From IMG/VR virus record IMGVR_UViG_3300021959_000326, positions 1-26,374 of that record: DNA of 26,374 bases; one strand, 5' to 3'. The translations under genes were made by a program, and so were the position numbers. Under the pieces are notes generated by a model, which worked only from the letters and a program-made list of their open reading frames with translations, was not told the origin of the DNA and ran no database searches. Below are positions 1-1,913 of this stretch, one piece after another (the first letter of the stretch is position 1; each line of letters opens with the position of its first letter). Source of the DNA: a virus.

Positions 1-46
1 TTTCAAAATGGAGAAACAATACTTTATATATATCTATATAATCAAA

Positions 47-134
47 CTTGAATGGCATCTTTTTTAGGTGTCATTTGAGATTGGTTTTATATCAATCATT
101 TTATATATTTTTAAACTTTAAAAGGTAAATTATT
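47..134 (+). promoter_or_regulatory. Two-hairpin leader module, copy A
   Basis: Hairpin 1 pairs 47-60 with 66-79 around a TTTTT loop, giving a 14-bp stem with some G-U pairs. Hairpin 2 pairs 79-85 with 91-97 (GATTGGT/ATCAATC). An A/T-rich spacer and AAACTTTAAAAGGT follow. The AAGG in that string is the SD for the gene at 135. The same layout recurs before the genes at 808 and 1367. Role inferred: an RNA processing, stabilising or translational leader. Confidence 0.7.
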
Positions 135-482
135 ATGAAACTATCTGCAATGAATAACTTTAATAAACTAGCAACAAATGAAACTCCACTTAGTAAACAG
201 AAAGAATTGTTAGGTCTTGATTATCTGAATGATGAATTATCAGATGATGATTATGATGCTGATGTTGGATTTGTCACAAAAGGTGATACTCTAATCAATC
301 AATTTTATAATGGCAATTGGAGTGCATCCGTTCAAGAAATGAAAGACCACTTTATTTGGTGGAATGAATTGTTAGATTATATGAAAGACCATGAAGTTTG
401 GAGTGACTTTATAAAAGAGAATGACCACTTTGACCATGCTTTTTGGGGTGAATTAGGTCATGCATTAGGGAGGAAATCATAA
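135..482 (+). CDS. Hypothetical early protein (115 aa)
   Basis: I do not recognise this protein. It is acidic, with an Asp-rich stretch around residues 35-45, and has an aromatic-rich C-terminal half containing many Trp, Phe and His residues between about 70 and 108. There is no signal peptide or membrane segment, so it is probably a soluble cytoplasmic protein. The ATG lies 9 nt after the AAGG of leader module A. The stop TAA shares its last base with the next ATG (TAATG), so the two genes are probably translated together. The location among small early genes suggests a host-takeover role, but that is inference only. Confidence 0.75.
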   Translation: MKLSAMNNFNKLATNETPLSKQKELLGLDYLNDELSDDDYDADVGFVTKGDTLINQFYNGNWSASVQEMKDHFIWWNELLDYMKDHEVWSDFIKENDHFDHAFWGELGHALGRKS

Positions 483-718
483 TGAATGACATAATGAAAA
501 AAGTAAGTGATGAAAGTTATCTTATAAAAATGTTTGATGATTTCAGACTAGGATATATAAATAAGTTTGAAGTTTATCCATCTGCATTGAAACTCATTAA
601 AGAAAAAAGAATTACATTAAAGAGGGTTAAACAAATTGCATGGATGACATGCAAAATACCCTCCAATGTAGTTGATGACAGAATTGAATACATGCAAATT
701 TTAGAAAATCAATTATAA
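482..718 (+). CDS. Hypothetical early protein (78 aa)
   Basis: I recognise no family. It is small, lysine-rich and predicted helical, with the basic stretch KLIKEKRITLKRVKQIAW in the middle. That could contact nucleic acid, although no clear helix-turn-helix can be assigned. The start at 482 overlaps the upstream stop as TAATG and is served by GGGAGG about 8 nt upstream. An in-frame ATG at 494 (MKKVSD) is a weaker alternative. Leader module B begins 10 nt after the stop. Confidence 0.7.
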   Translation: MNDIMKKVSDESYLIKMFDDFRLGYINKFEVYPSALKLIKEKRITLKRVKQIAWMTCKIPSNVVDDRIEYMQILENQL

Positions 719-727
719 AAGTATCAA

Positions 728-807
728 CTCATAACATCTCTTTTTGGGGTGTTATGGGATTGTTATTTTTAACAATCATTTTACAAACTTTAAAAGGTAT
801 AAAAACA
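728..807 (+). promoter_or_regulatory. Two-hairpin leader module, copy B
   Basis: Hairpin 1 is a 13-bp stem (728-740 with 746-758) with a TTTTT loop. Hairpin 2 is a perfect 8-bp stem (758-765 GATTGTTA with 770-777 TAACAATC) with a 4-nt loop. ATTTTAC and AAACTTTAAAAGGT follow, ending with the SD of the gene at 808. Sequence differs from copies A and C mainly where pairing is preserved. Confidence 0.75.
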
Positions 808-1287
808 ATGGATAAACATAAATTAGCATTTAATCAATTAAAAGCAGAAACACGTTCTTTAACCTATCCAATCATGAACCCTCATGATGATATTACAGAT
901 TTATTTGATTATGCCAATGATAAAATCATGGATTACATCAACAGACAAAATCACAATATGCAATATTTTAGAGATGAATTCTCAAGGTTGAGACATCAAA
1001 ACGATAAACTCCAAAGAATGTTAGTCAAATCAGTTTTAAACATCACCTATTCTGAACCACTCACATTTGATGAAATCACTAGGATATTGAGAAGATACGA
1101 ATCACCAAAGTTGGAAAGCTCAACTCATTCCAAGATCCCAATCAAGTATATAAATGAGGTCAAAAAGCATTATAAAGGCAAATTCAAATATAAATATAGA
1201 GGTAAATCTATCAAAGAAATAGGTTATGAAAGACCTCAAAGTCATACAACAAGAGCTTTTGCCACTCATTTTGCATTATATAAGTGA
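808..1287 (+). CDS. Hypothetical early protein (159 aa)
   Basis: I recognise no family. It is hydrophilic and basic, especially at the C-terminus, where residues about 110-140 are rich in Lys, Tyr and Arg. A helical, possibly coiled-coil stretch (about 45-75) precedes this. Nucleic-acid or ribosome binding is possible but unproven. I place the start at ATG 808 (MDKHKLAF). The upstream in-frame ATG at 754 would translate leader hairpins B and lacks an SD, whereas 808 has the AAAAGG plus about 10-nt spacing shared by the genes at 135 and 1367. It is soluble with no membrane segment. Confidence 0.75.
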   Translation: MDKHKLAFNQLKAETRSLTYPIMNPHDDITDLFDYANDKIMDYINRQNHNMQYFRDEFSRLRHQNDKLQRMLVKSVLNITYSEPLTFDEITRILRRYESPKLESSTHSKIPIKYINEVKKHYKGKFKYKYRGKSIKEIGYERPQSHTTRAFATHFALYK

Positions 1288-1290
1288 TAC

Positions 1291-1366
1291 CTTTTAGCAT
1301 CTCAATGAGGTGCTAAGGGATTATCATTTGATAATCATTTTATAAACTTTAAAAGGTGAAATTATT
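1291..1366 (+). promoter_or_regulatory. Two-hairpin leader module, copy C
   Basis: Hairpin 1 is a 13-bp stem (1291-1303 with 1307-1319) around an AAT loop. Hairpin 2 is a perfect 7-bp stem (GATTATC 1319-1325 with GATAATC 1330-1336). ATTTTAT, AAACTTTAAAAGGT and the ATG at 1367 follow. This is the third copy of the module and lies 4 nt after the stop of the preceding gene. Confidence 0.75.
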
Positions 1367-1873: not shown

Positions 1874-1913
1874 AAAAAGGGGGATGTCATAGTATTGGCA
1901 TCCCTTTTTTTTT
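1874..1913 (+). terminator. Rho-independent terminator of first early operon
   Basis: GGGATGTCA (1881-1889) pairs with TGGCATCCC (1896-1904) around a TAGTAT loop, and nine T residues follow (1905-1913). Five A residues before the stem also let it work, less strongly, on the minus strand. It closes the operon that ends with the micro-protein at 1858. Confidence 0.9.

Follow-up and report, generated by a model that had tools for sequence, protein, structure and literature searches.

RNase III reads the length of a double helix, not its sequence, and in bacteriophage T7 its cuts yield single-gene messages with hairpin ends. The sites concerned are long hairpins between early genes of this podovirus. 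Cutting of T7 early RNA by RNase III is established (as cited in PMC5371410). Hammerhead ribozymes are found between the genes of phages and prophages, where their role is an open question: Perreault et al. (2011) only suggest processing of long phage transcripts (PMC3088659). Stabilization of mRNA by 5′-terminal stem-loops is established (as cited in PMC3997798). In cluster K mycobacteriophages, the ESAS are sequence-conserved 17-bp inverted repeats with a single consensus (PMC3203893), and in phage HK022 the put RNAs (putL immediately downstream of PL, putR some 270 nt past the PR start) bind the zinc-binding domain of the RNA polymerase beta′ subunit (PMC9378689). Each ingredient of the element described here—T7 RNase III sites, hammerheads between prophage genes, and 5′ hairpins as stabilizers—is known; a search of the open-access literature turned up neither a conserved cut-and-refold site of three strands nor a case of one being exchanged with hammerheads.

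The whole stretch of DNA analysed, hereafter ‘the window’, measures 26,374 bases and is a linear contig from IMG/VR, with early genes on the plus strand and late genes on the minus strand. Its nearest relative, by gene layout and tail tubular protein (72.5% identity), is Methylophilales phage MEP301 (MW452941.1; L101 in our set), a cultured phage of the marine OM43 clade, and we regard the window as a marine-type virus of bacteria with podovirus relatives. MEP301 encodes no RNA polymerase gene and is therefore transcribed by host enzymes (PMC8024684). A YqaJ search of bacterial genomes returned one partial match (a metagenome bin) and no host, and the window is tied to no host genome. Relatives were gathered by pattern and protein searches, and further copies of the element by covariance models (R1 and R2).

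Three two-hairpin leaders lie at positions 47–134 (copy A), 728–807 (copy B), and 1291–1366 (copy C), before ATG codons at 135, 808, and 1367. An earlier note had described them from the sequence, and the details it gave are all present: stem 1 (P1) has 13–14 bp, its last base is the first of stem 2 (P2), and ATTTTA and the ribosome-binding leader AAACTTTAAAAGGT follow. The compensatory changes are also as it quoted them, with two A-T pairs of stem 1 in copy B being T-A and G-C in copy C, and a G-C pair of stem 2 in copies A and B being A-T in copy C. The description was incomplete in that it missed a third helix (P0), a built-in stop codon, and the swapping of the element for hammerheads in relatives.

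P0 is formed by X, the stretch just ahead of stem 1, pairing with X′, the region in which the 5′ arm of stem 2 lies. On the plus strand, copy A (40–97) consists of X at 40–45, P1 at 47–60/66–79, X′ (the P0 partner of X) at 81–86, and P2 at 79–85/91–97; copy B (716–777) of X at 716–727, P1 at 728–740/746–758, X′ at 760–771, and P2 at 758–765/770–777; and copy C (1281–1336) of X at 1281–1289, P1 at 1291–1303/1307–1319, X′ at 1322–1330, and P2 at 1319–1325/1330–1336. The minimum free energy (MFE) z-scores against dinucleotide shuffles are, in the same order, −4.5, −4.7, and −4.3, and in all three copies the MFE structure is the extended P0–P1 hairpin, with the two-hairpin P1+P2 form as its competitor. 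The upstream stop codon is a TAA at 716–718 for copy B and a TGA at 1285–1287, within X, for copy C; for copy A, a relative (L072) has the same sequence at its end, after an ORF whose TAA maps to window positions 39–41.

The AAACTTTAAAAGGT leader, common to all three copies, occupies 113–126 (copy A), 785–798 (copy B), and 1344–1357 (copy C) on the plus strand. The plus-strand ORF after copy A (135–482; 115 aa) belongs to no family, and further, uncharacterized plus-strand ORFs lie between copies A and B (482–718; 78 aa), after copy B (808–1287; 159 aa), and after copy C (1367–1690; 107 aa). A strong intrinsic terminator, called from its fold (1874–1913, plus strand; about 16 bp, T9), ends this three-element transcription unit. 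Just past it, positions 2052–2130 hold a sigma70-like promoter (TACACA-17-TATAAT), a hairpin, and the same leader before the gene at 2133, and a fourth leader, AACTTTAAAAGG, at 2883–2894 precedes the gene at 2904 without a two-hairpin element. A hairpin motif, AGGTTGAGATACCT, is repeated in the window at 1852–1866, 1990–2002, and 2088–2102, and also in relative L016 near 3905; one occurrence lies beside a stop codon, another where the transcript of the 2133 gene is predicted to begin, and one before a T6 run (L016).

Further copies exist, and covariance-model searches extend the element family to dozens of contigs from related podoviruses. Copy A was left out of the models because the MAFFT alignment had misplaced it, and a model so built still retrieves copy A (E = 0.0036, 371 kb searched). 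Alignment A6 has 45 rows, one of which (R2 match L119:794) is a promoter-type leader and not an element. Over these 45 aligned copies, P1 and P2 are paired in 97.5% of 834 cells, and both-side changes number 198, where shuffles give 51.8 ± 5.7 and sliding gives no more than 29. Such counts tally sequences rather than independent events, and kin sequences can exceed shuffles, an inflation against which the slid controls, together with highly divergent members (L061, L070, and L108), are a partial guard. G-U cells number 133 and A-C cells 2, so the selected molecule is the sense RNA. Pairing, both-side changes relative to the shuffled and slid controls, and this strand test strongly support selection on RNA structure, which the earlier note had read from the window copies alone. 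A DNA-level palindrome or operator was also considered and is rejected, the stems changing in step with G-U common and A-C nearly absent.

On an alignment fitted to P1 and P2 only, P0 has 30 both-side changes among the 45 copies (11.2 ± 2.4 in shuffles; at most 8 when slid) and, among 31 copies aligned in the same manner, 17 both-side cells (6.0 in shuffles; at most 2 when slid). In a set of 15 copies, its pairing reaches 96.6%, and both sides have changed at four of the eight pairs. The helix is imperfect, being 87.7% paired on the widest alignment and showing a T.T at one position in roughly one copy out of four. X, X′, and X″ (the strand that pairs with X′ in P2) vary jointly as column triples, and the spacing between P1 and P2 is zero nt throughout the aligned copies. 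Together, P0 and P1 form a helix of 19–25 bp in 30 elements, with an irregularity or bulge in the 3′ strand, placed at the P1/X′ junction and usually 10–14 bp from the loop, and the P0 state averages 2.0 kcal/mol below P1+P2 in the 26 elements for which both states were found. Such a double helix of about two turns, and the keeping of helix rather than sequence, are what is expected of an RNase III site.

The element resembles the ESAS in being an inverted repeat that closely precedes a conserved motif for translation start, at a subset of genes; unlike theirs, its stems covary freely, three strands compete for partners, and the sequence conservation that defines the ESAS is not seen. Rfam 15 at gathering thresholds matched no family in the window and 16 loci, and at lower thresholds the window gave only chance-level sRNA matches. 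In the main clade, P2 is followed by ATTTTATAAAC and the Shine-Dalgarno sequence AAAGG. Across the elements, P2 mostly starts 43–51 nt before the ATG (31–38 nt in the L061-like group).

The upstream stop codon (TAA, TAG, or TGA) lies in X, 7–14 nt before P1, in 40 of the 45 matches. This built-in stop fits a processing site and also a ribosome-sensing switch; in the latter, a ribosome at the stop codon would melt P0 and let P2 form, and the two folds would set transcription or translation of the next gene with no cut being made. P0 and P2 are mutually exclusive, conserved, and near-isoenergetic, as such a switch would have them, but the ribosome-binding site is left free in both folds, a U-tract after P0 or P2 is not consistently present, and the element's replacements, the hammerheads, carry a stop codon at a like place yet could not act in this way. 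We therefore think a switch unlikely.

The doubt that the earlier note had cast on a simple terminator was justified. An intrinsic terminator or attenuator would consist of P2, or of P0–P1, plus a T-tract, and ATTTTA or ATTTTTA does follow P2 in most copies; a scan flags P1 as terminator-like, and true terminators occupy similar slots of some relatives. Intrinsic terminators (T6–T8) stand directly before the shared leader, with no new promoter, in L054 near 4790, L071 near 955, L098 near 2345, L026 near 3755, and L083 near 1105. Nine members have, however, at most three U in the 8 nt after P2 (e.g. L106 and L108, with GGCC-AAACC); P2 is A+U-rich where an intrinsic terminator has a G+C-rich hairpin directly followed by a U-tract; and the downstream genes would be without a promoter. 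Termination by the element itself is thus very unlikely, while the terminators in L054, L071, L083, and L098 indicate that the slot is not reserved for cleavage sites.

The relatives also contain ten distinct predicted type I hammerheads; hammerhead cores were first spotted by reading the leaders of these genomes. Rfam model RF00163 scores that of L032 at 32.0 bits (E = 1.6e-6; gathering threshold 34) and that of L080 at 25 bits (E = 3e-4), both below gathering. With a strict structural scan, 895 kb searched on either strand yielded three, and 20 shuffles and the reversed sequence yielded none; further ones came from added relatives. In MEP301, a predicted type I hammerhead lies at 703–747 (listed as 703–752) between gp02 and gp03, with the cut predicted after 747; Rfam does not reach E 1 there, and the call rests on the full core, the three stems, and the slot. 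A term search of the MEP301 genome paper did not bring up intergenic elements. In all ten cases, the hammerhead overlaps or directly adjoins the stop codon of the upstream gene, and its predicted cut falls 31–38 nt before the next ATG. The window has no hammerhead among Rfam matches at E 1 and none by structural scan: the core (CUGANGA...GAAA...UH) with its three stems is absent there and present in relatives in the same slot.

The element stands at one recurrent border, where a variable early gene is followed by the element, small genes, in some genomes a resolvase-like gene, YqaJ, and ERF. Before the block IENL-c4-RES-YqaJ, the slot holds the element in L100, L117, L120, and L121 and a hammerhead in L118, L119, and L122, with L119 also retaining an element one gene earlier. 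Before NNFD-c11-c2-c9-YqaJ, it holds a hammerhead in L032, and L027 and L031 have the element upstream of the same block. MEP301 reads gp02-hammerhead-...-YqaJ, whereas L061 reads gp02 homologue-element-...-YqaJ, and in L080 and L102 both occur within one early region. The hammerheads share with the element not only the slots but also the placement relative to the upstream stop and the downstream start; the element differs in having no hammerhead core and no conserved unpaired bases. Compared with MEP301 and L100, L102 (2011–2631) and L119 (2112–2343) show apparent insertions of a gene together with a proposed processing site, be it the element or a hammerhead, as in cassette-like growth of the early region.

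The exchange before the same genes occurs among phages with 99–100% identical YqaJ proteins, which argues that the two do the same job and predicts which one: it suggests that the long message of the virus is divided by cutting into single-gene transcripts whose ends are protected. Same-slot exchange could also mean that the element is itself an unrecognized self-cleaving ribozyme; the 45 copies have no conserved unpaired nucleotides apart from the ribosome-binding leader, and we find this scarcely credible. Nor is it at all probable that the element is an antitermination RNA of the put kind, which in HK022 consists of two neighbouring stem-loops that bind RNA polymerase. The element does have two adjacent stem-loops of about 60–70 nt in an early phage transcript made by host polymerase (about 70 nt by the HK022 measure). 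It differs from put, which lies downstream of an early promoter, in being intercistronic, placed at stop codons between genes away from promoters, with up to three per unit and many per clade; its stem and loop sequences are free to change, and it is swapped with self-cleaving hammerheads, which destroy the linkage to RNA polymerase.

Because hammerheads replace the element in the same slot, an RNase site or mRNA stabilizer is the best supported of the three functions that had been offered for it; the third, a site for a phage RNA-binding protein, is less likely. A protein that reads sequence is an unlikely partner, given how little sequence is conserved in loops and stems.

We propose that the element is an intercistronic mRNA processing site that is cut by RNase III and then refolds, a statement that we consider probable as a whole. 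That it is an endonucleolytic processing site we hold with good confidence; that RNase III is the cutting enzyme we put at about an even chance. The element begins at the stop codon of the upstream gene, and during transcription X would pair with X′, lengthening P1 into one hairpin. A double-strand-specific host nuclease, most likely RNase III, would cut this long hairpin at or near the P1/X′ junction (RNase III could cut such a hairpin in several places), leaving the upstream mRNA with the strong P1 hairpin as a 3′ cap. X′, once freed, would pair with X″ to give P2 as the 5′-terminal hairpin of the downstream mRNA, just ahead of the common ribosome-binding leader. The common denominator of the slot would then be a message starting shortly before the next start codon, which a hammerhead would provide by cutting itself and a promoter by starting transcription there. 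The element lacks a catalytic core, but its two-turn helix of kept length and free sequence is what RNase III would be expected to read. RNase III leaves a 5′-phosphate, which RNase E senses and from which a 5′-terminal stem-loop shields (references in PMC3997798). Hammerhead leaders carry no 5′ hairpin, and the 5′-OH end of the hammerhead product may need none.

The likeness to the T7 sites implies no sequence relation, and the cut here is a predicted one; unlike those sites, the window element has a third strand, X″, that can refold with the cut strand, and an upstream stop is built in. P2 and the hairpins of promoter-type leaders would sit at the 5′ end, as do the ompA and papA stabilizers, but the 5′ hairpin of the element would arise only after the cut. 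Leaders of the promoter type (sigma70-type promoter, same ribosome-binding leader) carry a hairpin that begins about 7 nt past the −10 box, the expected 5′ end of the RNA, in 16 of 21 cases, and the orthologue of the window gene at 135–482 in L004 and L007 has such a promoter and hairpin leader and no element. AGATATC or GATATC is common to early promoters of the clade, within or close to the −35/−10 spacer, possibly an operator or factor site (L025:208–297, L031:3890–3981, L081 near 300, L061 near 960, and L013 near 4070).

That 5′ hairpins occur on promoter-type leaders and that the P1 hairpin is strong would also suit a two-sided stabilizer or insulator with no cut of its own, P1 blocking 3′ exonucleases and P2 shielding a 5′ end made by another nuclease (e.g. 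RNase E). Such an insulator would leave unexplained both the conserved P0, which competes with P2, and the absence of any nucleotide between P1 and P2 in every aligned copy, and we judge it distinctly unlikely.

A cut-and-refold processing site might, more tentatively, define a phage RNA class interchangeable with hammerheads, with a strand that switches partners, a hairpin held until the ribosome leaves the stop codon, a cut, and a 5′ cap-like refold needed by the 5′-phosphate end; we regard this fuller picture as possible rather than probable. Because the host of MEP301 is cultured, a relative with a predicted hammerhead in the slot is open to mapping of its transcript ends. If the proposal is true, the early operons of this clade would be series of gene cassettes with an exchangeable cutting site at the end of each.
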